This document shows positions 25,101 through 43,783 of a DNA stretch of 64,000 nucleotides, piece after piece. Under the pieces are notes generated by a model. It searched no databases. It had not been told where the DNA came from and was given only the letters and a program-made list of their open reading frames with translations. A program made the translations under genes and the position numbers. The number at the start of each line of letters is the position of its first letter. Position 1 is the stretch's first letter. The stretch is from Candidatus Microthrix parvicella Bio17-1 (GTDB lineage: Bacteria; Actinomycetota; Acidimicrobiia; Acidimicrobiales; Microtrichaceae). The stretch lies in the NCBI RefSeq assembly GCF_000299415.1, contig NZ_AMPG01000001.1:1426001-1490000 (forward strand), read 5' to 3'.

Positions 25101-26255
25101 CAACCGCACCACGATGGGGCCACGACGGATCGAGGCCGACATGTAGCTGACCAGGGCCCTGGTGGCCTCCACCCGCGCCCGGCCCGGGTCGGTGCCGCGC
25201 AGCGGGCTGTCGTGACCGAGCAGGTGCAACAGGCCGTTGACCACGCCGTCGAGGTCGTTGCCGTCCACCACCGGGTCGAGCAGGTCGTTCACCGACGCGA
25301 CCGTCGCTTGTCGGGTCTCGTCCTCGTCAGCATCCTCGGAAAGGGACAATCCCTGCCGCAGCACCTCGGCGATCGCCGAGAACTGATTGGCCTCGCCATA
25401 CGGGATAAACCGACCGGTGAAGACCCGCGCCCCGTTCAGCCCGGCGGCCCGATGGGCCAGTTCGTCGGCCAGGCGGCTCTTGCCCACCCCGGCGTCCCCG
25501 CTGAGCAGCATCACCAGCGCCCGGCTTCGGTCGATCGAGCCGGTCAGGGCATCGCCCAGCAGTGAAATCTCGGAGTGTCGACCCACAAGGGGCACCCGGG
25601 GAGACCACGGGCGCTCGCCTGGCCGGGCGATGGGTTCCAGCGCACGGTGCGCCTCAACCGGTTGATCCCGGCCACGAACCACCAACCTCCCCCGGGATTC
25701 GTAGGCAATCGTGTCCTCGGTGACCAGACGGGTGGGTTCGCCCACCAGCACCGAACCGGGGTCGGCCGAGGTCTGGAGCCGAGACGCCAGGTTCACCACG
25801 TCGCCCATGGCCGTGTAGTCGCCACCCGCGCGTAATGCCCCCACCAGCACCTCGCCGGTGTTGACGCCCACCCTCATGCGCACCTCCACCCCGGTCTCGG
25901 CTGCGAAGTCGGCGAGGCTCTCCTGCATACGCAGGGCCGCCCGCACTGCCCGCTCCGCATCGTCCTCGTGTGCCAGGGGCGCACCAAAGAGCGCCACGAT
26001 GGCGTCGCCGACGATTTTGTCGACCCTTCCACCGAAGCTGACCACGTCCTGCACCAACCGCTCGAAGGCACCGTCCACCAGGTGCTTCACCTGCTCCGGG
26101 TCGAGCCGTTCGGACAGGCCCGTAAACCCCACCAGGTCGGCGAACAGCACGCTGACCACGCGTCGCTCCTCGGTCGGGACGCCCAGGGGCATCCCGCAGG
26201 TCCCACAGAACCGCGAGCCGGGTGGAACCTCGGCTCCACAGGACGGACACTTCAC
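22182..26255 (-). CDS. Class III cyclase with zinc ribbon, AAA ATPase and TPR-like region
   Basis: A 1357-residue signalling protein. Residues 1-21 form a zinc ribbon (C3, C6, C17, C20). Residues 30-180 are a class III nucleotide cyclase homology domain with metal ligands D40 and D84, base-recognition residues K80 and T148, and transition-state residues N155 and R159. Thr in place of Asp at position 148 points to a class IIIb adenylyl cyclase. An AAA/STAND-type ATPase follows (Walker A GDAGVGKS, residues 253-260), then about 700 residues of helical, TPR-like repeats and an acidic low-complexity stretch (PDDVGPDDSADPG). It should make cAMP under control of the ATPase. No DNA-binding domain is seen. 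The GTG start begins MKCPSCG. Confidence 0.85.
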   Translation of the reverse strand: MKCPSCGAEVPPGSRFCGTCGMPLGVPTEERRVVSVLFADLVGFTGLSERLDPEQVKHLVDGAFERLVQDVVSFGGRVDKIVGDAIVALFGAPLAHEDDAERAVRAALRMQESLADFAAETGVEVRMRVGVNTGEVLVGALRAGGDYTAMGDVVNLASRLQTSADPGSVLVGEPTRLVTEDTIAYESRGRLVVRGRDQPVEAHRALEPIARPGERPWSPRVPLVGRHSEISLLGDALTGSIDRSRALVMLLSGDAGVGKSRLADELAHRAAGLNGARVFTGRFIPYGEANQFSAIAEVLRQGLSLSEDADEDETRQATVASVNDLLDPVVDGNDLDGVVNGLLHLLGHDSPLRGTDPGRARVEATRALVSYMSASIRRGPIVVRLTDLHWGDDSVLALIDEMVERLAAHPLVVLATARRSLARRWSPRAGRHDLLMMNLDPLGADDAQLLLRRLTRDRELTEDVAAEFLERSGGNPLFLEELVRFVRRQDDGRESAADGSGERLEGLRSIPELPDTLRGLLSARMDALTGPEVEVVEDAAVWGPTGSLLVLEEMGRARGVDAGLVSTTVRRLAEKEVLVLDGVDWCFRNDVLREVAYGRLTKTERLRRHSDVATYLGGLAEGRDADDGLVEAVARHFTEAALLQRGLLESDQVGPQLDDAALAWTEDAAARAEAAANWLLADRLFGRALEVLDDSDDERRLAYLLGRAGARLQRWAINEAGADLDEADSLTGGRPVAQARVDLLRSDLERRRGRFERAGRLAGEALEALVGVGATAELAEAYRMQAMIRLFSGAVADAEQPATQALDLYHRLGNPQGEAWATQHLAWIAFMLGRIEEGERRIEASVRMFEAVGDRTGMMWSLGLEANLLFHNGFAEAAAEVAEVVLEEARLSDNAWAEGMMVSVLAQVDLWRGATDVALTGAERAVELLGPLGDPFGLTQARMLLGRALVMAGRVQAGLAELDRATRENGDKLTNQFVTKAVVDSLIGDLSAGAARQLLGDPPAVRNIGSLEVVTAAALALICDGADEEARSELLVFSVAESGTDAGAALGGDRGLAPWRRDLDLLRSGQHRRRMARGEAAWDGGGDRGLMLEVDPTERLDGGEGADTWDDVRRVSAQMERPPSWSLHLSNLSPTTGADPATADAAVEPGTPFPPDEPLLAVAGPAYPDDVGPDDSADPGARSGEDAGVCEGAGGGAGDVEAASDPTDGPGESSETGGVLPELAAAASRYPALGAVAALAEAVGDQPERSEVLERLVLASQRATYHDRALALLSVAVAAARTDRPTDAIVAIEGARAQVGATGDRLAGAIVALGSAQIATSVGDDRAEDWVRSAEVAWEDLAVKPKGWRRLWRRVLP

Positions 26256-27166: not shown

Positions 27167-29803
27167 ATGATCCGCATTGCGCTGACCGGGCTGCGGGGCC
27201 ACCGAACCAGGCTGGCGCTGTCCGCGCTGGCAGTCGTGCTCGGTGTCGCCTTTCTGTCCGGCATCCAACTGCTGGGCAACACCCTGACCGAGACGGCGAC
27301 CGGCCTGATCTCCTCGACCCTCGAGGGCACCGATGCAGTGGTGCGCTCCACGTCGGTGCAGACCTCCGCTTTTGCCGAGGTGCGCCAAACGGTGCCCGCC
27401 GACCTGGTCGATGACGTTGACGACGTCGACGGGGTGGCCGGGGTCGCAGGGGTGGTGCAGGGGTTCGGTCGGGTGATCGGCCCCGGCGGCGAACCAATCG
27501 ACTCGGGATTGGTCCCCACGCTCGTCACCAACTGGATTGCCGACCCCCAACTGGCCCAGGGCGCGTTGGTGGTGGGTCGCCCCCCCAAGAAGCCCACCGA
27601 GATCGTGTTGGACCCGCGGACCGCCGCCGACGAACACATTCGGGTTGGGGACACCATGTCGCTCCAGGGTGCCGTCGGCCTGCGCAGCTACCAGGTGGTG
27701 GGCATCGGCGGGCTGGGCCCGACCGGCGAGGACAACATCGGCGCCCGGGTGGTGTTTCTCTCCTCCGAGCAGGCAATGGAGTTCACCGGTGCCGACGGCC
27801 AGTTCGCGTTCGTGACCCTGCGGGCCGCCCCCGGCGTCGGCCAGCAGGGGTTGGCCGACCGCGTGAACGATTCACTGCCACCCGGATACGAGGCGGTCAC
27901 CGGCGAGCGTTACGTGGCCGATACCCAAAAACAGGCCGGCGGCGCGTTGGGACTGCTGACCCAATTGGTGTCGGTTTTTGGCTACGTGGGGCTGTTCGTC
28001 GGGGGCATCATCATCGCGAACACCTTCTCGATCCTGATCACCCAGCGCACGAGGGAGTTGGCGTTGATGCGTGCCTGCGGTGCGAGCCGCGCCCAGGTGC
28101 TCGGCTCGATCATGATCGAGGCGACGCTCGTGGGTGTGCTCGGATCGATCGTCGGACTGGGCATTGGCGTGGTGGGGGTCATCGGCCTGTTACAACTGGT
28201 GGGGAACCTGATCACGTTGCCCACCACGGTGCCAACGCTGACGCCCTTGGTGGTATTCGGCAGCCTGATCGTGGGCGTGGCGACCACAGTGGCGGCTTCG
28301 ATGGTGCCGGGCTGGCGGGCCACCCGCATCTCCCCGGTGGCTGCACTCGGCGAGGTGGCGGAGGACCGGGGACGCGGTTCTGTTACCCGTCGGTTGCTGG
28401 GCATGGTGATGGCGCTGGGGGGCCTGGCCGCCGGGTCGCTGGCGCTGTTCGCCATCGACGCCAACGCCAGGCTGACCCTCGTTGCGGGCGATCCAGCGGC
28501 GGGCACCGCTGCCACAGCGGTCAACCTGCGCACCGTGGTGTTCTCAGTCAGCGCTGCGATCACCCTGCTGTCGTTCCTCGTAGTGGGGCCGGTGGTGGTC
28601 GGGCCGGTCGGTCGGATCATCGGCTGGCCCCTTCGGTTGGGCGGGGGTCCGGTGGGACACATCGCCGGCGAAAACGCACGCCGCAATCCCAGCCGTACCA
28701 CCGCCACGGCGGCGGCGCTGACCATCGGCGTGGCCATCGCCACCACACTGGCGGTGTTCGTCGCCTCGCTGGTCGGCAGCGTCAAGGCCGGCTTCTCAGA
28801 TCAGTTGCGCGGCCAGATCGTGGTGTCATCCGGCCTGGGCGGCGCCACCTCCGGCGGGCTCCCCGAGGGCGTGATGGGTGACGTGGCCGCCACCAGCGGC
28901 GTGGACACCCTGGCCCGAGTGCGATTCATTCCTGCCACGGTCACCGGAGTCGACGGCAACCCCACCGGGGGCGGATCGGTCTCGGGCGTCGACCCCAAGC
29001 CGTTCTTCTCGCTGGTCAAGGTGCCGCTCATCGGCGGGACCGCGGCTTCGCTGACGCCGGGCACGGTCGCCGTTGACGCGGACACCGCTCGTGCCAACGC
29101 ATGGGCGGTCGGCGACAGCATCAGCGTGTTCTACCCCCAGGTTGGGGCGGTTGAGTACCCCATCTCCCTGTTGTTCGAGGGCCCCATCGGCACAGCGAGC
29201 TTCCTGATGCCCATGGAGAACCTCGATGACGTGACCGCCGTGGCCTTCCGCCAGGACGCGCTCTACTACATCTCGGTCACGCCGGGCTCCGACCCGACCG
29301 TGGTCGCCGACCGGATCGACGGCGAGCTGAGACGGGTTGCACCCGCCGCCAAGGCGCAACTGGTCCCGCAGTGGCTCGACGACACGGTGGCCACGTTCAA
29401 CCTGGCTCTCAACCTGGTGTACGTGATGCTGGGGTTCACCGTGCTGCTGTCGTTGTTCGGCATCGTCAACACGCTGTACCTCTCGATTTACGAGCGCACC
29501 CGCGAGCTGGGACTGCTGCGATCTGTGGGGGCCACGCGCGTCCAGGTCCGTCGCCTGGTGTTGGCCGAGTCGGTGATCATGGCCTCCATCGGCACGTCGG
29601 TGGGTATCACCCTGGGCGTGTGGTTTGGTGCGGGTCTGTTCACCGTGCTGTCGGGCAACATCGCGGCAGCCACCATCCACGTGCCGTGGGTGCAGTTGGT
29701 GGTGCTGGGTCTGGGTGGGGCCATCGCCGGCATGGCGGCCGGCTGGTGGCCAGCCGGGCGGGCCGCCCGTCGGCCCATCCTCTCGGCAATCGGATACGAG
29801 TAG
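27167..29803 (+). CDS. FtsX-like ABC transporter permease
   Basis: An 878-residue integral membrane protein with an N-terminal helix (residues 15-40), a large extracellular MacB-type domain, an FtsX domain with three helices including ITQRTRELALMRACGASRAQ, a middle membrane pair, a second extracellular domain, and a C-terminal FtsX domain with SIYERTRELGLLRSVGATRVQ. The two-domain layout of FtsX repeats is usual for actinobacterial mechanotransmission-type exporters of lipids, peptides or antibiotics. Substrate is unknown. It is the partner of the ATPase just upstream. Confidence 0.92.
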   Translation: MIRIALTGLRGHRTRLALSALAVVLGVAFLSGIQLLGNTLTETATGLISSTLEGTDAVVRSTSVQTSAFAEVRQTVPADLVDDVDDVDGVAGVAGVVQGFGRVIGPGGEPIDSGLVPTLVTNWIADPQLAQGALVVGRPPKKPTEIVLDPRTAADEHIRVGDTMSLQGAVGLRSYQVVGIGGLGPTGEDNIGARVVFLSSEQAMEFTGADGQFAFVTLRAAPGVGQQGLADRVNDSLPPGYEAVTGERYVADTQKQAGGALGLLTQLVSVFGYVGLFVGGIIIANTFSILITQRTRELALMRACGASRAQVLGSIMIEATLVGVLGSIVGLGIGVVGVIGLLQLVGNLITLPTTVPTLTPLVVFGSLIVGVATTVAASMVPGWRATRISPVAALGEVAEDRGRGSVTRRLLGMVMALGGLAAGSLALFAIDANARLTLVAGDPAAGTAATAVNLRTVVFSVSAAITLLSFLVVGPVVVGPVGRIIGWPLRLGGGPVGHIAGENARRNPSRTTATAAALTIGVAIATTLAVFVASLVGSVKAGFSDQLRGQIVVSSGLGGATSGGLPEGVMGDVAATSGVDTLARVRFIPATVTGVDGNPTGGGSVSGVDPKPFFSLVKVPLIGGTAASLTPGTVAVDADTARANAWAVGDSISVFYPQVGAVEYPISLLFEGPIGTASFLMPMENLDDVTAVAFRQDALYYISVTPGSDPTVVADRIDGELRRVAPAAKAQLVPQWLDDTVATFNLALNLVYVMLGFTVLLSLFGIVNTLYLSIYERTRELGLLRSVGATRVQVRRLVLAESVIMASIGTSVGITLGVWFGAGLFTVLSGNIAAATIHVPWVQLVVLGLGGAIAGMAAGWWPAGRAARRPILSAIGYE

Positions 29804-31050: not shown

Positions 31051-32617
31051 ATGAGCGTTCCGCACACCGGCACCGGCGACAGGCTCCTCGGAGGCATCCT
31101 GTCGACCGACTTCTACCAACTGACCATGGCGCAGCTGTACTTCCGGGCTGGACTGGCCGACCGCCCGGCCCGTTTTGAGCACTTCTTCCGCAGCTACCCG
31201 GACTACGGACGGCACCAGGCCGGGTACTGCGTGGCCGCCGGGATGGCGCCGTTCGCCAAGTGGATGACCGACGCGCACCCCACCGACGCCGACCTGGAGG
31301 CGTTGCGGGGGCACCGCAGCTCCACGGGTCAGGCGTTGTTCGGCGACGACTTCCTGGGCTGGTTCGCCGACCTCGACTTCTCGGCGCTCACGCTGCACGC
31401 GGTGCCCGAGGGTCGTGTGGTTCACCCCAACACGCCGATCACCGTGGTGGAGGGCCCGCTGGCCGCCGCCCAACTGCTGGAGACCCCGCTGTTGAACCGG
31501 CTGAACTTTCCCACGCTGATCGCCACCAAAGCCGCCCGCGTCAGCGAATCGGCACTGGGCCGTCCCGTGCTGGAGTTCGGCATGCGTCGCGCCGCCGAGG
31601 CGGGCGCCGACGCGGCCACCCGGGCGGCATTGGTGGGCGGTGCCACCTCCACGTCCAACACCGCCGCCGGATACACCTGGGGGGTGGACCCGTCTGGAAC
31701 CCACGCCCACTCGATGATCCAGGCCTACCTGGCGCTGGGCGAGGGCGAGCGGGCGGCGTTTCAGGCCTACGCCGACACCTACCCGGACGATTGCCTGCTA
31801 CTCGTCGACACCGTCGACACGCTCGGCAGCGGCGTTCCCAACGCCATCGCCGTCTTTGAAGGTCTCCGCCGCCGGGGTCACCGACCGGTGGGGATTCGCC
31901 TGGATTCCGGCGACCTCGCCTACCTCGCCATCCAAGCCGCCCGGGCAGCTGAACCAGGCGGGCTTCGACGAGGCGACCATTGTCTTGTCCAGCCAACTGG
32001 ACGAGCTCACGATCTGGCAGATCACCCATCAGATTCAGGAGGAGGCGTCCCATGCCGGGCTCGATGCCCAGGCGGTGATCAACCGCCTGGTGTTCGGCGT
32101 TGGTTCGCGCTTGGCCACCAGCGACGGGTCACCCAGCCTCGATGGCGTCTACAAGCTGGTGGCGCTGAAACGAGATGGTGCGTGGCAGCCCGCCATCAAA
32201 CGATCTGACACGCCCGAGAAGGTGCTCAACCCGGGGACGAAACGTCTCTGGCGCGTCACCGATCAGCAGGGCATGGCTACCGCCGACGTGTTGTCCACCG
32301 CCGACGAAGCGCTCCTTCCCGGTGCCGCCATGGCGCTGCACCACCATTCGCGTGCAGATGTCTCCCGGGTGATTCGAGCCGAGGAGTGGGCCGGCGCTGA
32401 CGAACTGCTTCAGCGGGTGATCGCTGACGGCGAGGTGGTGAGCGACGGCGGCATGGAAGCGCTGAACGACCTTGGGGTGATCTCTGAACGCCGGCGGGCC
32501 GACGTGGCCGCCCTCGGGCCCGGCGTTCGACGGTTGGTCAATCCGCACACGTACCACGTGTCCATCACCGAGTCGCTGTGGGATCTGAAACAGGAACTGC
32601 TGGCCAAGCTGGGGTAG
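31051..32617 (+). pseudogene. pncB: Nicotinate phosphoribosyltransferase, frameshifted
   Basis: Nicotinate phosphoribosyltransferase makes NaMN from nicotinate and PRPP. The first frame (31051 to about 31944) carries [37 protein letters not shown] and [12 protein letters not shown]. The rest, from [16 protein letters not shown] to the C-terminus WDLKQELLAKLG, lies in the next frame. The break is in CCGGGCAGC at 31941-31949: removing one G from the GGG at 31943-31945 restores an uninterrupted protein of about 521 residues. Both halves look fully conserved, so this is a recent mutation, a sequencing error or, less likely, programmed shifting. Confidence 0.88.
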
Positions 32618-32984: not shown

Positions 32985-33917
32985 TCAGCTCCAGCCGGTG
33001 CTGATGCCCAGCAGGTCCTCGACCGCGGCGATGTCACCGGCGAGGTCCACTCGCAGCCTCGAACGCAGGTCGTCATCCATCGGGTCGGACGGAGCATCGT
33101 TGCGGGGCGAGGTGTCCAACACCCGATGGCGGGGCAGGCCCAGTCGATCGGTGACCCGGTCGATGAAGGCCTGCGGGTCGTCGTAGAACACCTCGGCGGT
33201 CACCACCATCACCTGCTCGCGGCCATACGCGTCAAACCAACGCTGGAGCATCGGCGCATAGCGACCCTGATCGACGTAGCTCTGGTGACGATGTGCAAAC
33301 GAGGTGACCGTCGGGTCGGCCAGGATGCGGGCCGCCTCCCCCTTTGTTCGGTCGGCCTCCGCCTCGATGGCGGCGGGAAAGCCGAGCGCCTCGCTATGGC
33401 GCCTGCGCTCCTTCCAGTGTGAGTAGGCCCGATCGATCGGGTTGCGGAGCACAGCCACCACGAGCGCGTCGGGCGCCACCTGCGCAGCTCGGACGGGGGC
33501 GAGCGGGTGATACAGGTCATACGGTGACGACTCACCGGTCGCCGGCGCGTACCCAAGCCGACCCTCGGCCCGGCGACGCGTTCGAGTAGATGCAAAGTGC
33601 GACAACCACCAGCGCTCGCCCCGGTGCCACTCCTCGGAAAAAAAGTAGGTGCCCTTGGAGTTGGGGGTGGGGAACTGGGTCAGCATGCCCGGATGCTCGG
33701 CCAAGTACTGCCAGAGCGAGGTGGTGCCACCCCGCTTGGAACCCACGATCAACAATTCGGGCGGGGGGCGCCGAGCGGCGGTGGCCCTTCCGTATCGACT
33801 GAGAACGGCCTTGGCCGCTGAGGCCAGGTGCGGACCCATGGGGTGCTGACGTACACGTTCTCGAGCCGCTCGCAAGGCTGACGGTGTCTCGACTTCCTGA
33901 GTGGGATCGGTACTCAT
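32985..33917 (-). CDS. PAPS-dependent sulfotransferase
   Basis: A 310-residue soluble sulfotransferase that should transfer sulfate from PAPS. The 5'-phosphosulfate loop is VGSKRGGTTSLWQYL (near residue 58), and the 3'-phosphate motif is VLRNPIDRAYSHW, in which Arg and Ser contact PAPS. The catalytic region and HRHQSYVDQGRYAPML resemble NodH/heparan-type carbohydrate sulfotransferases. It is the last gene of the minus-strand polysaccharide cluster, 7 bp after the Wzy-like gene, so a sulfated glycan is a reasonable inference. No sulfate-activation genes lie nearby. Confidence 0.88.
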   Translation of the reverse strand: MSTDPTQEVETPSALRAARERVRQHPMGPHLASAAKAVLSRYGRATAARRPPPELLIVGSKRGGTTSLWQYLAEHPGMLTQFPTPNSKGTYFFSEEWHRGERWWLSHFASTRTRRRAEGRLGYAPATGESSPYDLYHPLAPVRAAQVAPDALVVAVLRNPIDRAYSHWKERRRHSEALGFPAAIEAEADRTKGEAARILADPTVTSFAHRHQSYVDQGRYAPMLQRWFDAYGREQVMVVTAEVFYDDPQAFIDRVTDRLGLPRHRVLDTSPRNDAPSDPMDDDLRSRLRVDLAGDIAAVEDLLGISTGWS

Positions 33918-33924
33918 ATCGACC

Positions 33925-35415
33925 TCAGTCGGCTCCCGCCAGGATGGATTGAGGGTGACGGGCAAGGATCGGAGCCGGTTCCGCCGCCGGTGCCTCCTTG
34001 GCACGACGGCGGCCGGCGGCCCGCTCCCAGCGATCGCGTTGCACCAGCCCGGCCGCCACGCCCACGATTGGGAGCTGCGGCAGCAGCCCGTAGAACCCGA
34101 ACTGCAGCAGGAAGATCACCAACACGACCGCTGACCAAACCTCCACGTCGCGGCGGGTGCGCAGCGCCGCCCAGGTGGTGCGCACCATCCAGTAGACGAA
34201 CAGCGCAAGCGCAACAAAACCGTGGTTGTACATGATCCACCACACCAGGCCGTGGGTGCCGATCGGCGGGGTGCCCTCCTGTGGGGTCGGGGCACCCCAC
34301 CCAATCAGCGGAGACTCCAGGGCACCACCCCAGGCATCCACGTACAGCGTGGCCCGCGACTCGTTTGAATCCGTCGCAGTCTCAATTTTGGTGAACACGA
34401 GGTCACCCAATGGCGAAAAGGCCAACAGCAGCGCCACCACCACCGCCAGGCCAACCGCCACCTTCGCACCGGTCCAATCGCCGCTCATCGCCCGGCGGGC
34501 CGCCCAGTAGACGAACAGCACTGCGATGGACATCCACAGACCACGATTGAACGAGAACGCCGTCGGCACGGTCGACAGCGCCAGCATCACCTGGCCGAAG
34601 CGACGCCGCCGTGCCAGTGGTGAACGCACGAATGCCCCGAAAAAGAACGGGAGGGTCAGGCCCATGGTGGAACCCCAGCCGTTGGCGAAGGCCATCGGCG
34701 CCGAGGGGCGGGCCAGGGTGTAACCCAAATAGTTGGTGACCTCCGCCAAGCGCAGGCTGCTGACGGAATCGATGAACCCGCTGGTGGCGACACCCTCGGG
34801 CAGGATCAGCTGCAGGCCACTCGGTGCGGTGAACGTGCCCGCAACCAACGCCAGATAACCGAACCCGACACAGCCGACGAAGATCAACCCCAGCCAGTAC
34901 TGCACCACCTGGGTCGGCAGGCGTTGGCGGGGAACGTTTGCGAACCACACGAGGCAGGCCCAGAGCGAGGCCATGATCACCCAGCGGTAACCGAACAGCA
35001 TCAGCCCCTGGGCCTCTTCGATATGGACTCCCGAGAGCCCCACGATGACGAGGAACCCGCTCAGAGCGACAGCGCCGGTGGGCACTCGGAAGCGGGACGG
35101 TCGAGCCAGGATCACCGGCCCGAACGCAACTGCCGGCAGCACCCACACGAACGGGTACAGGCCAAGCAGCCACAACACCGGCATGCCGAGCGACCATAAG
35201 GCCACGGGCCACCCGATGGACAGATACCTCCGGGCACTGAACGAACGGTCCGAGCACTCATCGGTGCTGCGCCTTCGCTGGGGCGCCAATGACCATGTGG
35301 TGTTCCCAGGCGGTCGCGGTTGCGAACGGGCGGCATGCTCGAAGCACTCGACCCGGACCGGCACAGGTTCCGCGCCTGACCGGCGCCGCTCAGCCACGAT
35401 GGGCGACCGTGTCAT
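33925..35415 (-). CDS. O-antigen ligase / Wzy-type polymerase
   Basis: A 496-residue polytopic membrane protein with about ten to twelve hydrophobic segments. A loop reading GWGSTMGLTLPFFFGAF and the segment FNRGLWMSIAVL are followed by the periplasmic part ATLYVDAWGGALESPLIGWG, typical of the O-antigen ligase/Wzy family. About 65 residues of basic, disordered N-terminus precede the first helix, so the true start may be downstream of 35415. It should polymerise or ligate lipid-linked oligosaccharides, partnering with the Wzx-Wzz fusion upstream. Confidence 0.8.
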   Translation of the reverse strand: MTRSPIVAERRRSGAEPVPVRVECFEHAARSQPRPPGNTTWSLAPQRRRSTDECSDRSFSARRYLSIGWPVALWSLGMPVLWLLGLYPFVWVLPAVAFGPVILARPSRFRVPTGAVALSGFLVIVGLSGVHIEEAQGLMLFGYRWVIMASLWACLVWFANVPRQRLPTQVVQYWLGLIFVGCVGFGYLALVAGTFTAPSGLQLILPEGVATSGFIDSVSSLRLAEVTNYLGYTLARPSAPMAFANGWGSTMGLTLPFFFGAFVRSPLARRRRFGQVMLALSTVPTAFSFNRGLWMSIAVLFVYWAARRAMSGDWTGAKVAVGLAVVVALLLAFSPLGDLVFTKIETATDSNESRATLYVDAWGGALESPLIGWGAPTPQEGTPPIGTHGLVWWIMYNHGFVALALFVYWMVRTTWAALRTRRDVEVWSAVVLVIFLLQFGFYGLLPQLPIVGVAAGLVQRDRWERAAGRRRAKEAPAAEPAPILARHPQSILAGAD

Positions 35416-36556
35416 GCGGCACCGGCGACACCAGCGCCTCCAAGGCGGCAGAGATGCGAATCCCCCCTGGCGTTGGGGCCGAGCTCAGGGGTGTCACCGA
35501 ACACCAACCAGGTTGGACCATCACACGGTCAAGTTGGGCTCGCAGTTCGGATTCGGTATTGGCACCAAGCGTCACGCCCCGCTCTACGAGAACCTTGGCA
35601 AACGCCACCTGGTGCCCATCGACGTGCTCACCCATCTCGTCGTTGCGCGGCACGACCAGCGGCTTCACCCCGGCACGCAACGCATCCATCACGGTGCCCG
35701 GCCCCGCAGCACACACCACCGCATCCGCACGGGACATCAGATCCAACAGTTCGTCAAAGTCCAAGGCCTCCGGGCAGTACGCGACCCCACCTGGATGCGG
35801 GGCGGTGCCTCGCTGAATCACCACCTGGGCATCGTCGGCATGATCGTCGGCCCAGCGGCCGGCCCATGTCACCAGCCGACCGAACCGGTGGCTGTCGGTG
35901 CCCACCGTGACCACAACCAATGCCGGGTGTGAACCGGCGCGGCGCATTGCGACGTCGTCCTCAGCCCCGTTTGGACCGCGTGGGTTGACGGCGACGATCG
36001 GCGCATCGGGCCAGATCGTGCCCATCACCTGAGCGTTCGGATAGAGCGAACCCTGCTCCGGCCACTGCACCAACACCGCGTCGCTGACCCGACGCACGAG
36101 GCGGCCGGTCATCGTCGTCGAGTCGATGCGGTCATACACCTCCAGGTAGGCGGTCTTGATCCCCATCAACCGACCCAGCCAGAAGAAGGGCACCGCCACA
36201 CCCGCACCGGTGGACACGATCAGGTCGGGCCGCCGGCGCCGCAGTTCCCGCCAGGCCATCACCAGGTTGCGAGCCAGGTTGGGCAGATTGCGCGCGGTCG
36301 GGTGATGCGCCCACACGACCTCCTCGCCCCGCAACCGCGACACGACATCAGGCAAGTCGAAGCTGACCCACACCCGCCGGTGCCGTTGCCAGAACCCACT
36401 CAGCTCCAGCAGGTGGGAGAGGTGCCCACCGGAGGACGTCACCAACATCACCAACGCCTCGGTGCCGTCCGGACGCTTTCGGCCGCGACGAATCGCCACC
36501 GTCAGACCCTCGGCGCGCAGGCGTGGCGGCTCGGCATCGAACCCGAGGTTGCGCAT
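35390..36556 (-). CDS. Glycosyltransferase, PssD-PssE (Alg14-Alg13) fusion
   Basis: About 388 residues. The N-terminal half is PssD/Alg14-like (VMLVTSSGGHLSHLLEL, then RRPDLIVSTGAGVAVPFFW). The C-terminal half is PssE/Alg13-like, GT28 type (LVVVTVGTDSHRFGRLV, then MSRADAVVCAAGPGTVMDALRAGVKPLVVPR). In most bacteria these are two genes whose products form a membrane-bound pair adding a sugar to a lipid-linked acceptor; here they are one chain. The start ATG 36556 lies 7 bp after the previous stop; GTG 36580 is an alternative. A C-terminal extension past the GT core is present. Confidence 0.82.
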   Translation of the reverse strand: MRNLGFDAEPPRLRAEGLTVAIRRGRKRPDGTEALVMLVTSSGGHLSHLLELSGFWQRHRRVWVSFDLPDVVSRLRGEEVVWAHHPTARNLPNLARNLVMAWRELRRRRPDLIVSTGAGVAVPFFWLGRLMGIKTAYLEVYDRIDSTTMTGRLVRRVSDAVLVQWPEQGSLYPNAQVMGTIWPDAPIVAVNPRGPNGAEDDVAMRRAGSHPALVVVTVGTDSHRFGRLVTWAGRWADDHADDAQVVIQRGTAPHPGGVAYCPEALDFDELLDLMSRADAVVCAAGPGTVMDALRAGVKPLVVPRNDEMGEHVDGHQVAFAKVLVERGVTLGANTESELRAQLDRVMVQPGWCSVTPLSSAPTPGGIRISAALEALVSPVPHDTVAHRG

Positions 36557-36563
36557 CGTGCGG

Positions 36564-39500
36564 TCACAGTGCCACCACACCGGAGAGGTGCGCGTTGATG
36601 GAACGGAGGCTCTCGACGGTGGCAGTCAGTTCCTTGCGGTCGGCCGACTCCGATTCGACGGTCACCAGCACGCCGTCCACCTGCGGTGCCAAAGCAAGAG
36701 CGTCGGCGTAATCGGTGGGCGAAGGCGCGATCAGAACAACCTGATCGAAGGCGACCCCATTGGGGTCGGTCAACGCGTCCTTGAGGCCCGAGAAGCGGAA
36801 CAGTTGATCGCGTGCCTCCGCGCGTGACCCCACCGGCAACAGATAGAGGCCCTGACAACCGGGGATTTCCAGCACGGCGTCCTCCAGCCTGGCCGTGTTG
36901 GCCAACACCTCACCGAGCCCGGGCCCTCGGGGGACCGAGAAGTAGGCACCCAACGTGTCCTGGCGCAGGTTCGACCAGATCAACAGCACCCGGCTGCCCT
37001 CGCGGCCGAGGGTGACGGCCAGGTTCGCTGCGACCTCCTCAGCGGGGGCAGAACCCGCTGACGTCACCAGGAGGAACCTGGGCCCCGGGCCCTCCCAGCC
37101 TCCCAGTCGGAGGGCCAGGCGACGGTAGCTCTCGGCCTCGGCACCGTTGCCGTTGCCGGCCACCTCCACCCCGGGGGCATGGCGGCTGGCGGCGCGTCCG
37201 TACCACTCACCAAACCACTCCTTGTTGTCATCGTCGGCATCATCGTCGGTGGTGATCACGTTGACCGGGGTGGCCCCGACCAGCTCCTGGATGTCCTGGC
37301 TGCTGTGGACCCTCGGGTCGGTGCGGTCACGAATGAGCGCCACGAGGAACCCGACAACCAAGGCTGCGGCGACAACCCCGACGAGTACCACAGGTGCCCC
37401 CAGGCTGGTGCTGTCCACCGGCAGGGTTGCGGGACTGACCACGTTGCCCGTGGTGCTGTCCATGGACTGCCACCCCGATCTCTCCACCCTCAGGTTGCTC
37501 TGTTCGCTCAACTGGGAGTTGAGCTGTGCGGAGAGCACGGTCGCCTTGGTGGGGTTCTTCTCGGGGTCGACATCCTCCAGTCGGCGCGAGGTGGCGAGCA
37601 CCAGGTCGTCAAGCAGTTTCACCTGCTGGTCCAGCCCATTGATCACGCGGGATCGTCGGGATTCCTCCTGCTTTTGGCGAAGTGTCAGGTAGCTGTCGAC
37701 CAGCGCCTGCGCTCCAGCCTGTGCCGCCGCCGGATCGTCGGCCAGATAGCTGACGTCCAACGCCAGGCTGTCGGGAAGTACCGTGACCGAGGAGTGGTCC
37801 CGGAGTTGGTCGGCCGACACGTCGTCGCCCAACAGTTCAGCGGCGCGCTGTGCCACCTCGTCGGAGCGCAGGATGCTCTTCTGAGTGGCGGTGAGCGTGG
37901 CGACCGGGCTGATCCCGCCGGTGCCGGAGCTTCCTGGCGCGGTCGGTGCCTGTTCCAACACAATTCGAGCAGTGGATTGGTAGCCGGGCTCGGCCTTGGC
38001 CAGGTAGGCCAGACCAAACAGCGCTCCAAGCACGCCGGCCATCGCGATGATGACAAACCGTCGACGGGCCAGGCCGAGATAGTCGGCCAGGGTTGGGGTG
38101 TCTTCACCGTCCACGACGGCCTCCCTTGATGGTCGGGGGTTGGCAGCAAGAGTCGACGGCCGCGCCGGGGCGACCCGCTCGCTGGTTGAGCGTGCCGTGA
38201 GCGGACGCGTGGCCGCCTCGGAACGAAGTCGGGCCGGCAGCCGACCGTGTCGAGACTGCGCCCGACCGGGGAGCAACCGGTCCAATCCGGTCTCACTTCG
38301 GAACCGCCACACACACCCGACGAAGGTGACCGTGCCACCCACAACGGCCACGATGAGGCCGAGCCAGGTTGCACCAAACGACACCCGACAGAGCAACGTG
38401 ACGACGCCAACGGAGGCGGTGGCAAGACCGGCGCTCCACGCTGCGGGGCGGCTGATCATGTTCAAACCCATCCGCTGGTGGGCCTGCCAGGCCGGCAACA
38501 CCACCAGCAGCACCAGGGTGAGCGCCCAGATGACCCCGGCCCCGGTGATGCCAAGCCGGGGGATGAGCACCAGGTTTCCGACCAGGTTGAAGACGACGGC
38601 GATACCGGCATTTCCCATGGCCTGGGAACTCTTGCCCCCCATGAGAATGACCGATCCCGCCGGACCGAACAGGGAGAACACCATCAGGCCGAGCGAGAGT
38701 GCGATCAGGGCTCCCTGGGCTGCCAACACCTCCGGGCCGAACACCCCCAACAACACCGGGGCGAACCCGATCGTCACCAGGTAGATCGGCCAGGTGAGCG
38801 CCGTCTGCCAACCCGCAGCGGTACGAACCAGGTGCGAGGTGGCACGGCCACGATGCCTGGCCATCAGGCTCGAAACCCTGGGGCCAACCACCTGCATGAT
38901 CGCCTCGGAGATGAAGGCGCCAATCACCACGTACCGGGTGCCCGAAGCGTAGACACCGGCCGCCTGGGTGGACACCAGGGCACTCACCAGCAGCGTGTCA
39001 ATCCAGGCGATCGACACCTCGAAGGTCTGCCCGGCGGCACGCGGAGCGCTGAATGCCCAAAATGCCTTGGCGATGGCCGGCCACGACGTTCGGTCAAAGC
39101 TCGGGCCACCATGGGGCGAGTCCGCTCCCGAGGCGACGCTGGCCATACGGGGTTCGTCGGGCGTCAAACGGGCCGCTTGAAGCAGGCGCCGCGACACGAC
39201 GACCGCCGGAATCAGAGCCACCAGGTTGGTCAAAGCCCAGACGCGAGCCACAGCGACCACATCGCCACCCAGCCTGGTGGTGAGAAGGACAACGACCGGC
39301 AGCAACAACGCCCGTCCAATCTTCTCAATCACGGCCTGGGGCCACATCACCTCGTAGCCGCGGGTGGAACTCACCAACACCGTCTCGATCACGGCCAGTG
39401 GAAGCAGCGGCGCCAACGCCAAGAACACCCGGGCCAGCTGGGGCACGCCCGTACCGTTGGCGAATAGGTCGGCCAACCACGTCGACTGTGCCCCCATCAG

Positions 39501-40022
39501 CCAGGCGAACAGCAGGCTGATGCCCACCACCGGCACCAGGCTGACGGCCATCATCTTGGGGATGACGTCCACCGCGTGCACGGCGCGCAGGCGGGAGATC
39601 CAACGGATCAACCCCGTTGCCGACCCCAGCTCGGCGACACGAGCCAGGATGTTGAACGCGGCGATGGCCACCAGCGCCACACCGGCGGTCTCCGTACCAA
39701 GTTCATGGTTGAGCACCCACAGGAGCGCAAAGTTGGCAGCGCCGTACACCACGGCGGCCACCAGGTTGAGCGCGCCGCCGCGTGCCACCCCGCCGAGGGA
39801 GCCCGCCTCCCGATCTGGGAGATGACCGCGACCGCCGCCTTGGTCCAGATCCGACTGCACCTCGACATGGATCTCGCCGAATACGGCCTGCACGCCTGGC
39901 GCGGGCTGCGGACCCGAGTGGCCAGGTTCGTGCCTCATCACCGGCGGCGGGAGCAATGCCGAATTGGGACCGGCGCCGAGCGCCATGTCCATCTCAAGTT
40001 CACGAGACGGCGGCCACCTCAC
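36564..40022 (-). CDS. Wzx flippase - Wzz - BY-kinase-like (pseudokinase) fusion
   Basis: A 1152-residue protein combining three functions. Residues 80-575 are a Wzx/MATE-type flippase with about 14 hydrophobic segments. A basic linker (575-640) leads to a Wzz/PCP copolymerase domain (641-905): TM1 about 655-675, a periplasmic coiled region, and TM2 about 876-897. Residues 915-1152 resemble a BY-kinase/CpsD domain, but the Walker A segment is VTSAGSAPAEEVAANLA with no GKS/T, Walker A' is LLIWSNLR with no Asp, and no Tyr-rich tail exists. It is probably catalytically dead. The N-terminal 80 residues are disordered and cytoplasmic. GTG 40022 overlaps the previous stop (GTGA) and has GGGGAGGGG upstream. 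Confidence 0.88.
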   Translation of the reverse strand: MRWPPSRELEMDMALGAGPNSALLPPPVMRHEPGHSGPQPAPGVQAVFGEIHVEVQSDLDQGGGRGHLPDREAGSLGGVARGGALNLVAAVVYGAANFALLWVLNHELGTETAGVALVAIAAFNILARVAELGSATGLIRWISRLRAVHAVDVIPKMMAVSLVPVVGISLLFAWLMGAQSTWLADLFANGTGVPQLARVFLALAPLLPLAVIETVLVSSTRGYEVMWPQAVIEKIGRALLLPVVVLLTTRLGGDVVAVARVWALTNLVALIPAVVVSRRLLQAARLTPDEPRMASVASGADSPHGGPSFDRTSWPAIAKAFWAFSAPRAAGQTFEVSIAWIDTLLVSALVSTQAAGVYASGTRYVVIGAFISEAIMQVVGPRVSSLMARHRGRATSHLVRTAAGWQTALTWPIYLVTIGFAPVLLGVFGPEVLAAQGALIALSLGLMVFSLFGPAGSVILMGGKSSQAMGNAGIAVVFNLVGNLVLIPRLGITGAGVIWALTLVLLVVLPAWQAHQRMGLNMISRPAAWSAGLATASVGVVTLLCRVSFGATWLGLIVAVVGGTVTFVGCVWRFRSETGLDRLLPGRAQSRHGRLPARLRSEAATRPLTARSTSERVAPARPSTLAANPRPSREAVVDGEDTPTLADYLGLARRRFVIIAMAGVLGALFGLAYLAKAEPGYQSTARIVLEQAPTAPGSSGTGGISPVATLTATQKSILRSDEVAQRAAELLGDDVSADQLRDHSSVTVLPDSLALDVSYLADDPAAAQAGAQALVDSYLTLRQKQEESRRSRVINGLDQQVKLLDDLVLATSRRLEDVDPEKNPTKATVLSAQLNSQLSEQSNLRVERSGWQSMDSTTGNVVSPATLPVDSTSLGAPVVLVGVVAAALVVGFLVALIRDRTDPRVHSSQDIQELVGATPVNVITTDDDADDDNKEWFGEWYGRAASRHAPGVEVAGNGNGAEAESYRRLALRLGGWEGPGPRFLLVTSAGSAPAEEVAANLAVTLGREGSRVLLIWSNLRQDTLGAYFSVPRGPGLGEVLANTARLEDAVLEIPGCQGLYLLPVGSRAEARDQLFRFSGLKDALTDPNGVAFDQVVLIAPSPTDYADALALAPQVDGVLVTVESESADRKELTATVESLRSINAHLSGVVAL

Positions 40023-41350
40023 CGCTCCCCTCCCCCAGCTGCGGCCTTGGCGCAGTTCACCAGCTCATCGCACAACACAGGCAGGTCACCGAGCGCCTCG
40101 AGGTGGCCGGGCGCCCCTGCACGGGCGGCATCGATCAACCTCGCAGCCAGTTCCAAGACGTGAGCACAAGCCACCACCTGCCCCGTATCGGCACCCACCC
40201 CCAGGGAATCGAGGCTTTGAGCCCCAAGAATCCTCGACCGTTGGAGCGCCCTCGCCACGTCGACCGACCCGGTGACGTGCAGCTGCTGGTAATGCCAGTG
40301 ATAGGCGTCGAGGCCAACCGGCCGGTCAGCCCCCGAGTACTCCCAGTCCCACACCCACAGCGAGGCGCCCGACCACGCCAGATTCCATGGCACCCAGTCG
40401 CCGTGCCATCGGCCCAGTGGCACCGGGAGGTCAGCGATCAGCTCGGCGGCACGTTTCCATGCATCGGCGAACCGGTCCCAAGCGTCGCGCCTCGCCGAAT
40501 CCAGGCCTGCGGGCCGTGCCGCGACCAGTGCGTCAGCCCAGGTGGCTCCACCCGACGACGCGAACGCCTGGAGCCGCGGTGGCCCATCCAGGCCGGCGAC
40601 CTCGAGAAGCGCTTCGGGTCGAAGCCCGTCGTCAACCGACATGCGCACCACGTCGGCGGGCATCGGCGCGGTGACCGAGACCACCGTGTCGCCCCACTCG
40701 AAGCGTTCCAGCAGCGTTGGACTGGCGAACTGGCTGCGCTTTCGTCGTACCAGTTGATGCAGCACGGCCGCCTCAGTCTCGACCTGGGCACGCGTGAGCT
40801 CGGTCCAGCCCACCTTGGCGTAAGCCACCGGCGTTCCGTCCAAGGCGAAGAGCTGCAGCGTTGGCGTCCAGAACGGGTCCACGTTGCGGGGCGAGGTGGC
40901 GAAGCTCAGATCGTCACGTCCAAGCCGTCGAGCCAGTTCATGCAGCAGGGGAACCAACTGCTCGTCGGCGCCCGCAAAACGTCCGGTGGGCGGCCCGCTG
41001 GTCATCGCAGTGCCCTGAACCCTTTGGAGCACACCGCTGCCCAGGCCCCAACCAACCACCGCCCTTCGGCGGGCAACCGCCGGGGGCCGAAGGCGGTTGT
41101 AGGCCAGACAACTGGCTGCGGCCGCTCGGCGGGTCTCGGTCGGTACGTAAAACCTCGGGTTCGCGGCGGTGGGAAACGCCCGATGCGTTTCGTCGTCGCT
41201 TGCGACGGCGACGGGTCGAAGCCCCAGGAGATCACCCAATACCGCGACCGAATCGTCGCTGAACACCTGCGTGCGGGCTCCCCGCTCCGTGACCGGTCCA
41301 CGCTGGTCAAGCGACTCAGCCGATCGTGTGCCACCGCCGTGCCTGCTCAT
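40019..41350 (-). CDS. APH-fold phosphotransferase in polysaccharide cluster
   Basis: A 443-residue protein with a C-terminal aminoglycoside-phosphotransferase/choline-kinase-like domain: catalytic loop LGRWHGDWVPWNLAWSG and metal loop WVWDWEYSGAD. The N-terminal 130 residues are unrecognised. Coupled starts and stops (ATGA) link it to the GT2 gene before it and the fusion gene after it, so it acts in the glycan pathway, possibly phosphorylating a sugar or lipid, rather than in drug resistance. Substrate unknown. Confidence 0.78.
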   Translation of the reverse strand: MSRHGGGTRSAESLDQRGPVTERGARTQVFSDDSVAVLGDLLGLRPVAVASDDETHRAFPTAANPRFYVPTETRRAAAASCLAYNRLRPPAVARRRAVVGWGLGSGVLQRVQGTAMTSGPPTGRFAGADEQLVPLLHELARRLGRDDLSFATSPRNVDPFWTPTLQLFALDGTPVAYAKVGWTELTRAQVETEAAVLHQLVRRKRSQFASPTLLERFEWGDTVVSVTAPMPADVVRMSVDDGLRPEALLEVAGLDGPPRLQAFASSGGATWADALVAARPAGLDSARRDAWDRFADAWKRAAELIADLPVPLGRWHGDWVPWNLAWSGASLWVWDWEYSGADRPVGLDAYHWHYQQLHVTGSVDVARALQRSRILGAQSLDSLGVGADTGQVVACAHVLELAARLIDAARAGAPGHLEALGDLPVLCDELVNCAKAAAGGGER

Positions 41351-42402
41351 AGTCCCCGACCACGACGATTCAACGCGGCGACCACCCGCCCCGGCGGCAC
41401 CAGTCGGGCCCACACCCCGATGGCCAACCAGGCCCGCGGCTGGCGCAGGTCGGCGGCGAGCGCGGCGCGGATCAGCCGCCTGGCCTCGACGCGGTTGCCC
41501 GCCGAAGCCGCAGCGAATGCTCGCTGGCCCAGCACGCGGGCATGCCCCCTCGGATGGTCAACGAACTCCGGGAACCGCTCCAGCAGGTACCCCAGGGCGG
41601 TGTCGATCGTCCGCCAGCGTTCCGCAAACAGCGACCCTCCCCCCCACCCCTTGCACACCAACGGGGACCGGGTGGTGGGCAGCGGATGGCGCTGCGCGGC
41701 GCGCAGCACAAACTCGTAGTCCTCGGCGTAGCCGCCGGGGATCTCCTCGTCGGCGCCGCCGAGACGGTCGGGGTCGAGGAACGCATCACGGCGCACCATG
41801 GTGGTGACGAATTCCACCTCCATCATGCGATCGTCCAGCAGGTCGCCCATCGTGACCGCTTCGGTGAGGAGCGGCCGTTCGGTGATCGTGCCGAGGTGGT
41901 CCACCAGCAGACCGCACACCACAGCGTCGACCTCGGGGCGACGCTCCAGCAACGCCACCTGGGTCTCGGTCTTGTCTGGCAACCAGGTGTCGTCGTCGTC
42001 GCAAAAGCCCAGAAACTCCCCGGTCGCCACCTCCGCCCCACAGTTCCGGCCCGCCGGGAGCCCCCGGCGATGGGTGTTTCTCAGCACGGTCACCGGGCGA
42101 CGAGCGTCGTTGACGTTGAGCGAGGTATCGGGTGCGGTGCCGTCGTACACGACGAGGGTTTCGATCACACCGTCGTACCGTTGAGCAACGATGGACGCGA
42201 TCGCCTCACGTAGGAGTTTCGGACGATCAACGGTGCAGATCACCACCGAGGCTCGGGGCCGACCCAAAGCCGCGCCGACCTCGGACACCTGCTGCGACGA
42301 CGCTGCGGCTGTGCCCGCAACCGTCGCCGCCAATGGGTGATTTCCTACCGCAGCTTGCTTGACGCGCTCACTGCCGGCGCTCGCCTGATCCCGCATGCCC
42401 AT
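41347..42402 (-). CDS. Family 2 glycosyltransferase
   Basis: About 351 residues with a GT-A fold: nucleotide-binding ASVVICTVDRPKLLREAIAS, RRGLPAGRNCGAEVATGEFLGFCDDDD (the DxD-type metal site), and acceptor region EEIPGGYAEDYEFVLRAAQ containing the ED of the catalytic base. A helical C-terminal extension (about 80 residues) follows. It opens the polysaccharide operon, 91 bp after hemL. The ORF is open further upstream, but MGMRDQASAG at 42402 is the most credible start. Sugar specificity unknown. Confidence 0.82.
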   Translation of the reverse strand: MGMRDQASAGSERVKQAAVGNHPLAATVAGTAAASSQQVSEVGAALGRPRASVVICTVDRPKLLREAIASIVAQRYDGVIETLVVYDGTAPDTSLNVNDARRPVTVLRNTHRRGLPAGRNCGAEVATGEFLGFCDDDDTWLPDKTETQVALLERRPEVDAVVCGLLVDHLGTITERPLLTEAVTMGDLLDDRMMEVEFVTTMVRRDAFLDPDRLGGADEEIPGGYAEDYEFVLRAAQRHPLPTTRSPLVCKGWGGGSLFAERWRTIDTALGYLLERFPEFVDHPRGHARVLGQRAFAAASAGNRVEARRLIRAALAADLRQPRAWLAIGVWARLVPPGRVVAALNRRGRGL

Positions 42403-42493
42403 CCCGATTGTCGTGGTCCCGCCAGGGACGTTGCGAGGGTATCGCCGGCCGGCAGCGATCCGACCCTGTCCGACGAGACACTGAGCAGAAGGG

Positions 42494-43783
42494 CTAAATG
42501 GACCCCTCTGCCATGCGCACAGCCACCTGAGCGGCGGCCTCGGCGGTGCGGGCGATGTCCTCGGGGCGGTGGGCAAGGGACGGGAACATCACCTCGTATG
42601 GCCCGGGAGCCAGAGCGATGCCTGCATCCAACATGCCATGGAAGAACTGTGGGTACAGGCCCAGCGACACCGAGGCGCGTGCAGACTCGAAGTCGACGGG
42701 CAGATCGGAGCCAAAGAACACCCCAACCAACGGGCCCACCCTTGGCACCCTCGCCTCGATCCCGGCGTCCGAAAATGCTCGATGCAGGCCGTCGGCCAGC
42801 GCCTCGGCGGTGTCCTCCAGCTGCGAGTATGCATCTGGGGTGAGCAACTCCAAGACAGCGAGCCCGGCTGCGGTGGCCAGCGGGTTCCCTGACAGCGTGC
42901 CCGCCTGATACACCGGGCCGAGGGGCGAGATATGACTCATCAGCTCGGTCGACGCGCCGTAGGCACCGACGGGCAGGCCTCCACCGATCACCTTGCCGAA
43001 GCACCAGATGTCGGGGGTGACCGACAGGAACTCGGTGGCGCCACCGAAGGCCAGCCGGAAACCGCAGATGACCTCGTCGAACATCAACAGTGCGCCCACT
43101 CGGTTGCACTCGTCGCGCAGCCCCTCGAGGAAGCCATCTCGAGGGGCGATCAAGCCCATGTTGGCCGCCACCGGCTCCACCACCACGACGGCCACCGTCT
43201 CGTCCAGCGTGGGCACCACGTTGTAGGGAGCCACCACGGTGTCGGCGATCGACCCCGGCGTCACCCCGGCCGAGTCCGGCGTGGAGGTCTCGCCCAGGTC
43301 GAACCCCTCGATGACGCCCGAGCCCGACGAGGCCAACAGCGCGTCGGAATGGCCGTGGTAGTTGCCGACGAACTTCACGATCTTGTTGCGGCCGGTTGCG
43401 CCTCGGGCCAGACGGATGGCCGACATGGTGGCCTCGGTGCCCGACGACACCAGCCGCAGCTGCTCAAGGCCATCGATTCGGCCCACCATGGTCTCCGCCA
43501 ACCGCACCTCGCCCTCGGTGGGTGCACCGAACGTGGTGCCACGTTTGGCAGCCGCCTCGATGGTGGCGATCACCTTCGGGTGCGCGTGGCCCACGATTGA
43601 GGCGCCGTAGCTCTGCACGTAGTCGAGGAACACCGCTCCTTCCACGTCGGTGACGTAGGCACCGTGGCCCTCAGCGATGAAGTTTGGGGTGCCTCCGACC
43701 GAACGGAACGCCCGCACCGGCGAGTTGACCCCGCCGGGCATCACTCTGAGCCCGCGCTGATACAGATCGTGATTGGAGGTCAT
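42494..43783 (-). CDS. hemL: Glutamate-1-semialdehyde 2,1-aminomutase
   Basis: A 429-residue PLP enzyme that converts glutamate-1-semialdehyde to 5-aminolevulinate, the second step of the C5 haem pathway begun by HemA. The PLP lysine is K264 in FGKVIGGGLPVGAYG, and MFDEVICGFR holds the aspartate that contacts the ring nitrogen. MPGGVNSPVRAF at the N-terminus is the family hallmark. AGGAG precedes the ATG at 43783. It is 53 bp downstream of hemB on the same strand. Confidence 0.95.
   Translation of the reverse strand: MTSNHDLYQRGLRVMPGGVNSPVRAFRSVGGTPNFIAEGHGAYVTDVEGAVFLDYVQSYGASIVGHAHPKVIATIEAAAKRGTTFGAPTEGEVRLAETMVGRIDGLEQLRLVSSGTEATMSAIRLARGATGRNKIVKFVGNYHGHSDALLASSGSGVIEGFDLGETSTPDSAGVTPGSIADTVVAPYNVVPTLDETVAVVVVEPVAANMGLIAPRDGFLEGLRDECNRVGALLMFDEVICGFRLAFGGATEFLSVTPDIWCFGKVIGGGLPVGAYGASTELMSHISPLGPVYQAGTLSGNPLATAAGLAVLELLTPDAYSQLEDTAEALADGLHRAFSDAGIEARVPRVGPLVGVFFGSDLPVDFESARASVSLGLYPQFFHGMLDAGIALAPGPYEVMFPSLAHRPEDIARTAEAAAQVAVRMAEGSI

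Follow-up and report, generated by a model that had tools for sequence, protein, structure and literature searches.

In the stretch of Candidatus Microthrix parvicella Bio17-1 that was analysed (the window, 64,000 nucleotides of contig NZ_AMPG01000001.1, whose own numbering is used below), one minus-strand frame of 1152 codons holds a Wzx flippase followed by a polysaccharide co-polymerase (PCP) that ends in a degenerate bacterial tyrosine (BY) kinase domain. We read this frame as the part of a Wzx/Wzy operon that encodes Wzx and PCP. The PCP carries a dead kinase that would act as a scaffold, and a free form of the PCP is most likely produced as well, if not exclusively; a probability of roughly 0.68 was assigned to this reading. 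Judged from aligned sequences, a dead kinase characterises the family and is not peculiar to the window protein. The unusual element is the join between Wzx and PCP; a pseudokinase joined to a PCP has already been described (PMC12004946). In this genome the join is doubtful, and the odds that a Wzx-PCP chain is made are about even.

By open reading frame (ORF) reading, the frame ran from a GTG start at 40022 to a stop codon at 36566-36564 and was uninterrupted, as the sequence-only reading of this DNA had claimed. The 1152-residue protein gave one match only across the genome (4,202,850 bases, 13 contigs). The GTG overlapped the stop of an upstream APH-like gene (GTGA) and was preceded by GGAGG, making the long start credible. 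Flippase, Wzz and kinase-like parts were found where that reading had placed them, by homology, Pfam, structure models and Foldseek:

36564..40022, minus strand: stop-free frame of 1152 codons; GTG start, GTGA overlap with the APH-like gene, GGAGG upstream
38268..39797, minus strand: Wzx/MOP flippase part, residues ~76-585 (homology, model, Foldseek)
38115..38267, minus strand: linker, residues 586-636; predicted local distance difference test (pLDDT) <50 nearly throughout, rich in R, A, P and S, codon signal absent in all frames
38120..38124, minus strand: GGAGG, resembling a ribosome-binding site, 5 nt upstream of GTG codon 637
36567..38114, minus strand: PCP (Wzc-like) part, from GTG 637 (likely internal start) to residue 1152 (Pfam, profile, model)
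36567..37145, minus strand: BY-pseudokinase domain, residues ~960-1152; CapAB and Wzc kinase fold, motifs lost
37026..37064, minus strand: Walker A position, TSAGSAPAEEVAA, residues 987-999
36960..36989, minus strand: Walker A' position, VLLIWSNLRQ, residues 1012-1021, Asp to Asn
36717..36740, minus strand: Walker B position, VVLIAPSP, residues 1095-1102, Asp to Ala

The PCP part (residues 637-1152) was matched by Pfam Wzz (PF02706) at residues 649-728 with E 1.5e-07, and comprised two membrane helices flanking an extracytoplasmic helical domain, followed by the kinase fold. When this part was combined with 16 relatives into a profile, it matched Wzc (7ni2/7nhr) at E 2e-42 and CapB at E 4e-33. 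The Wzx and PCP halves were modelled separately, because a joint alignment had placed PCP rows on the Wzx half. The PCP model reached a pLDDT of 78 and a predicted template modelling score (pTM) of 0.49, and its Foldseek match to Wzc was long yet loose (TM-score ~0.45), while the kinase part aligned with CapA1B1 (4jlv) at Z 27.2 and a root-mean-square deviation of 2.3 over 219 residues (VIA-align).

Within this fold, the GK[S/T] of Walker A was missing and replaced by TSAGSAPAEEVAA, the Walker A' aspartate was an asparagine and the Walker B aspartate an alanine, and the chain ended in LSGVVAL with no Tyr tail. The first two losses had been claimed from the sequence alone; the other two came in addition, so that every feature of an active BY kinase (Walker A GK[S/T], the A' and B aspartates, the Tyr-rich C-terminal tail) was absent. 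A chain-length regulator and a kinase in one chain are the usual Wzc (PCP-2a) form, and the window protein, with the PCP membrane and extracytoplasmic part and a BY-kinase fold in a single chain, belongs to it. The claim of a fusion between three proteins that normally stand apart was therefore too broad, only Wzx with PCP being unusual. The window kinase fits the definition of a BY pseudokinase given for EcpK (PMC12004946), a BY-kinase fold lacking the Walker motifs and Tyr tail; it does not fit the bipartite PCP-2 form of EcpK/EpsV, as it lies in the same chain as the PCP.

The Wzx part shared 46% identity with a protein of G022, a relative in the same family, and 48% with one of G005. Its model (pLDDT 87, pTM 0.84) had 14 long membrane helices, counted from the DSSP line, which would leave both flippase ends on the same membrane side. 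In Foldseek the best solved match was MurJ (7waw, E 6.6e-07), with WzxE (9g9p, E 1.3e-05) lower in the list, and NCBIfam gave weak matches to spore_V_B and MurJ only, far below cut-offs. The 14-helix MOP fold of the model, together with the position of the gene inside a polysaccharide locus, identified this half as Wzx/MOP.

Across the relatives, as far as their sequences tell, a lost P-loop is the rule beside this Wzx family: GK[S/T] was lost in 74 of the 81 PCP rows compared and kept in seven, three of the losses being a change from Lys to Arg (L034, L092, L093). The 81 were drawn from 89 aligned rows, and the eight dropped came from L116, L117, L118 and L120 (too distant) and L121 (a copy of L031). 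Nearly all rows came from loci with this Wzx family, L038 and L039 lying elsewhere in two of those genomes; many rows are almost identical to one another, and each Actinomadura locus contributed two tandem PCPs. The Walker B aspartate was present in 7/7 rows with an intact GK[S/T] and in 4/74 others, and a Tyr within the last 40 residues in 7/7 intact and 0/41 other rows of a 48-row subset. Six of the seven intact rows belonged to one family (f3). In a tree built quickly from 51 of these 89 rows, a single change parted intact from degenerate rows (support 87); the tree is unrooted and gives the change no direction. An independent-pairs test on this tree yielded a single pair, and the association of P-loop with Tyr tail is therefore not separated from shared ancestry. 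The P-loop was kept in 6 of the 21 loci, window included, with a PCP directly after wzx (L033, L074, L078, L081, L085 and L086). Since it was lost with or without fusion, the dead kinase is independent of fusion.

Two patterns were set aside during this comparison. EX2RX2R is a ring motif of BY kinases, and its strict form occurred in 1/7 intact and 32/74 degenerate rows; a DxD pattern for Walker A' was too strict, with 1/7 intact and 2/74 other rows. The loci L127-L149 (Actinomadura, Spirillospora) often carried a tandem pair of PCP-pseudokinases upstream of wzx, and one member of the pair was commonly long-tailed with PRYGK near its end.

The linker between the two halves did not look like coding sequence. 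With codon log-odds trained on eight window genes, codons 575-635 averaged -0.05 in frame 0 and did not exceed -0.05 in either of the others, while frame 0 scored +0.2 to +0.4 over most of the ORF; GC by codon position was flat across the linker. A stop-free linker frame was obtained in 65.7% of 5000 dinucleotide shuffles, and an open linker therefore arises easily by chance. The GTG at codon 637 coincided with the start position of the relatives' PCPs, and GGAGG lay 5 nt before it; such a motif preceded 2 of 118 in-frame start codons, GTG 637 among them, with a baseline of 113 in 4292 ATG/GTG codons of the window. By helix count in the models, the end of Wzx and the start of PCP were on the same membrane side.

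Among the relatives, the three nearest with a readable wzx-PCP junction had two genes (G022, at L031/L121; L123; L124), and the locus of another relative, G005, stopped at a contig end. Family and order together supplied 60 loci, 58 of them with wzx, and separate abutting wzx and PCP genes were found in 19. Of 59 wzx loci, counting the window and L073, 21 had a same-strand PCP match that began within 600 nt downstream of wzx. Single frames holding both Wzx and PCP numbered four: the window, L073 (G340), L107 (G180) and L037 (G071). The frame in G340 is probably a frame break between overlapping genes, judging by its codon usage: the first 25 linker codons scored +0.31 in frame, the last 36 scored -0.71 compared with +0.29 in another frame, and that alternative frame ended at a TGA within an ATGA overlap with the PCP ATG.

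A conserved fusion was seen in G071 and G180, two species of one genus, which share a chain of 1370 and 1364 residues (82% identical):

L037:8282-12391: Wzx-APH-PCP-pseudokinase chain of G071
L107:615-4706: Wzx-APH-PCP-pseudokinase chain of G180

Its Wzx part was clear by Pfam Polysacc_synt, and its APH part carried HGD and matched Pfam APH at 2.9e-08 in L037 and choline kinase at 8.7e-05, under the cut-off, in L107. The PCP profile matched L107 at E 1e-07 and missed L037 at 1e-05, and a Pfam Wzz scan of the chain did not report the PCP part; this part was 33% identical to a stand-alone PCP-like protein of each genome, matched by the profile at E 6e-10 in G071. Between the two species, Nei-Gojobori nonsynonymous and synonymous distances (dN/dS) were 0.055/0.42 for Wzx, 0.066/0.46 for APH, 0.132/0.55 for PCP and 0.178/0.70 for the pseudokinase, giving ratios of ~0.13, 0.14, 0.24 and 0.25. 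The linkers gave 0.347/0.78 and 0.164/0.55, with dN<dS in both and the frame kept throughout; the first 80 residues were barely constrained (0.554/0.66), leaving the start of the chain unsure. With this pattern of purifying selection, the chain looks like a genuine fusion. It was absent from the other four of the six genomes of that family.

Wzx also occurred in other single frames. APH-like and Wzx parts shared a frame in G136 and G167, two species of one genus (L104:5629-8370, for which Pfam reported the Wzx part only, and L105:1-2493), and Wzx shared a frame with a C-terminal sulfotransferase domain in G492 (L165:6269-9025; PF13469, E 1e-26). Among the class and phylum matches, L161-L165 had long open frames (920 to 1602), none of which held a same-frame PCP match. 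Counted with a profile built from the same wzx loci, APH-like genes occurred in 39 of 59 of these loci, 23 of which had the gene on the strand of wzx and no more than 400 nt away; HGD was present in 40 of 42 aligned APH-like rows, window included, one miss being a misalignment and the other HAD. The Wzx profile matched at E 1e-30 in 56 of 397 genomes of the order set, 26 of 395 of the class set and 94 of 396 of the phylum set, the three sets overlapping. Neighbourhoods were fetched for 55 order matches besides the window genome and for 12 places only from the class and phylum matches, so fusions outside the order may be missed.

The window operon itself holds the pieces that are fused elsewhere (APH, Wzx, PCP, sulfotransferase). 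Besides the Wzx and PCP frame, it comprised:

41347..42576, minus strand: GT2 glycosyltransferase (PF00535, E 2e-22)
40019..41413, minus strand: APH/choline-kinase-like gene with HGDxxxxN and DWE, immediately upstream of the Wzx and PCP frame
35390..36580, minus strand: PssD/PssE-like (GT28 C-terminal and Alg14) glycosyltransferase, single chain (domain matches)
33925..35415, minus strand: Wzy/O-antigen-ligase-like polymerase (PF04932, E 3.4e-08)
32985..34004, minus strand: sulfotransferase (PF00685, E 3.6e-09)

The Pfam APH match of the upstream gene (E 1.6e-04, 22.0 bits) fell just below the cut-off of 23.2. The PssD- and PssE-like halves of the glycosyltransferase at 35390-36580 were joined as one chain. 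Elsewhere in the window, a 1357-aa protein at 22182-26255 matched a TOMM kinase/cyclase fusion family across 900 residues, under its cut-off.

From the observed domains and gene order, the predicted folds, and the motif loss seen here and across the family, we infer that the operon, with its GT2, APH-like kinase, Wzx, PCP-pseudokinase, PssDE-like glycosyltransferase, Wzy-like polymerase and sulfotransferase, would make a polysaccharide of the Wzx/Wzy type. Wzx is predicted to flip the lipid-linked repeat, Wzy would polymerise it, and the PCP, probably as a ring, would set chain length with Wzy. The pseudokinase would be a cytoplasmic scaffold, so that binding and assembly would govern length in place of Tyr phosphorylation. 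A free 516-residue PCP, started at GTG 637 from its own ribosome site, is most likely also, or only, produced. As the catalytic motifs are missing, control by direct binding without a Tyr-phosphorylation cycle, which the sequence-only reading had put forward, is a reasonable inference; the Discussion of PMC12004946 proposes the same for EcpK/EpsV and HfsB/HfsA.

Several observations weigh against this reading of a scaffold PCP made at least partly free. A Pfam scan of the window protein did not report a flippase family. At least 14 PCPs of Actinomadura/Spirillospora without a P-loop bear Tyr in a long tail, so the rule of joint loss fails outside the order, and the 51-row tree is unevenly sampled, with long branches. 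Scores near the linker level also occur in low-complexity parts of the ORF (codons 1-40, -0.03; 286-325, +0.04), and codons 1-40, 281-340, 381-420, 521-580 and 681-720 range from -0.03 to +0.11, which makes the flat codon signal of the linker a weak sign. The remaining operon junctions overlap or lie within ~10 nt, so a spacer of 150 nt would be out of character and a coding linker is favoured. The searched genomes held none of the window's genus, and the linker comparison rests on other genera. Ring formation and the scaffold role are taken by analogy from Wzc and EcpK.

Whether Wzx and PCP form one chain here divides two explanations. That they are separate genes, never joined in a chain, with a stop lost from view through assembly error or frame break, stands a little short of an even chance. 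The linker without coding character, the GGAGG-GTG at the PCP start, the two-gene arrangement of the nearest readable relatives and the probable frame break in G340 all fit it, as does pncB (nicotinate phosphoribosyltransferase; window 31051-32617), the only pncB found in the genome, which is frame-broken near 31946, 5 kb from the linker on the same contig. Nineteen other window ORFs were scanned and none of the 17 with family matches was seen continuing in another frame (three matched only partly, at 16005-18341, 22182-26255 and 27167-29803; two of the 19 matched nothing). Against separate genes, one break per ~20 checked genes makes a hit inside a 150-nt linker a priori unlikely. No frame wins in the window linker, so a break point is not visible, and the overlapping operon junctions speak the same way. 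A genuine chain that arose by loss of the wzx stop, perhaps beside a free PCP from GTG 637, is likewise slightly below evens. It draws on the stop-free frame, the compatible termini and the conserved G071/G180 chain, and the APH-Wzx frames in two species and the Wzx-sulfotransferase frame in one suggest that this Wzx tolerates fusions; the missing coding signal, the unfused nearer relatives and the resemblance of one of the four Wzx-PCP frames to a frame break count against it. The earlier claim of a dead kinase fixed to a flippase stands for the lost motifs and is left unproven for the single chain, given the linker signal and GGAGG-GTG 637. In a more elaborate and rather improbable version, both the whole chain and a free PCP would be made, mixed rings would tether one or a few flippases, and flippase supply would be fixed to length control without Tyr phosphorylation, with the APH-fold kinase in the same complex as its sole live kinase; gene order and fusion elsewhere tie that kinase to Wzx.

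That a fused dead kinase defines a novel type of export machine, as the sequence-only reading had suggested, is very improbable. The single frame and the dead kinase would agree with it, but dead kinases are common in the family, fused or not, abutting separate genes were found in 19 fetched loci, and PCP-pseudokinases are already known (PMC12004946, where single-chain forms are attributed to Cuthbertson et al.). Homologues were indeed split, into two genes and not three, and their kinases were mostly not intact; Wzx was joined to a PCP and a dead kinase in the G071/G180 chain, with APH in between, and the nearest readable relatives were unfused. Equally hard to credit is a kinase domain that is a decaying, functionless remnant. 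Every catalytic motif is lost, but the predicted fold is intact (Z 27 to CapAB), the domain is kept across many genera, and purifying selection was seen in the single pair tested (G071/G180).

To our knowledge, the physical coupling of Wzx, Wzy and PCP is unsettled. Natural fusions hint at contact, which could be probed with the G071/G180 chain and with the frames that join Wzx to APH or to a sulfotransferase; if only separate products are made, the window holds an ordinary adjacent gene pair. No paper on a Wzx-PCP fusion was found in the open-access literature, a scope that leaves out most subscription journals. The widespread kinase loss beside this Wzx would extend phosphorylation-independent PCPs to many actinobacteria. 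The APH-like protein might, at a guess, modify the flippase cargo; the flippase TacF, described as checking phosphocholine on its cargo (PMC13385700), is loosely comparable to a flippase with a choline-kinase-like protein next to it.

Compared with known systems, the window PCP shares with E. coli Wzc (PCP-2a; 7nhr, 7ni2) two membrane helices, an extracytoplasmic domain and a kinase fold in one chain, whereas it lacks Walker A, A' and B and the Tyr tail, is shorter (516 versus ~720 residues), and has a frame that extends upstream into Wzx. The kinase fold is that of S. aureus CapA/CapB (4jlv, 3bfv; Z 27), in which the kinase is active, separate and Tyr-tailed, unlike the window part in all three respects. 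With the BY-pseudokinase PCP-2 systems EcpK/EpsV and HfsB/HfsA (PMC12004946) it would share binding in place of phosphorylation, although their pseudokinase is described there as stand-alone and that of the window is joined to its PCP. The 14-helix MOP fold is common to the window flippase and the Wzx/MurJ flippases (7waw, 9g9p), from which it differs by a possible C-terminal continuation into the PCP. The G071/G180 chain resembles the window frame in joining Wzx to a PCP and a dead kinase, and its three gene types are neighbours in the window operon; it differs in the APH domain between Wzx and PCP, kept in two species, and in a PCP part only distantly related to that of the window.

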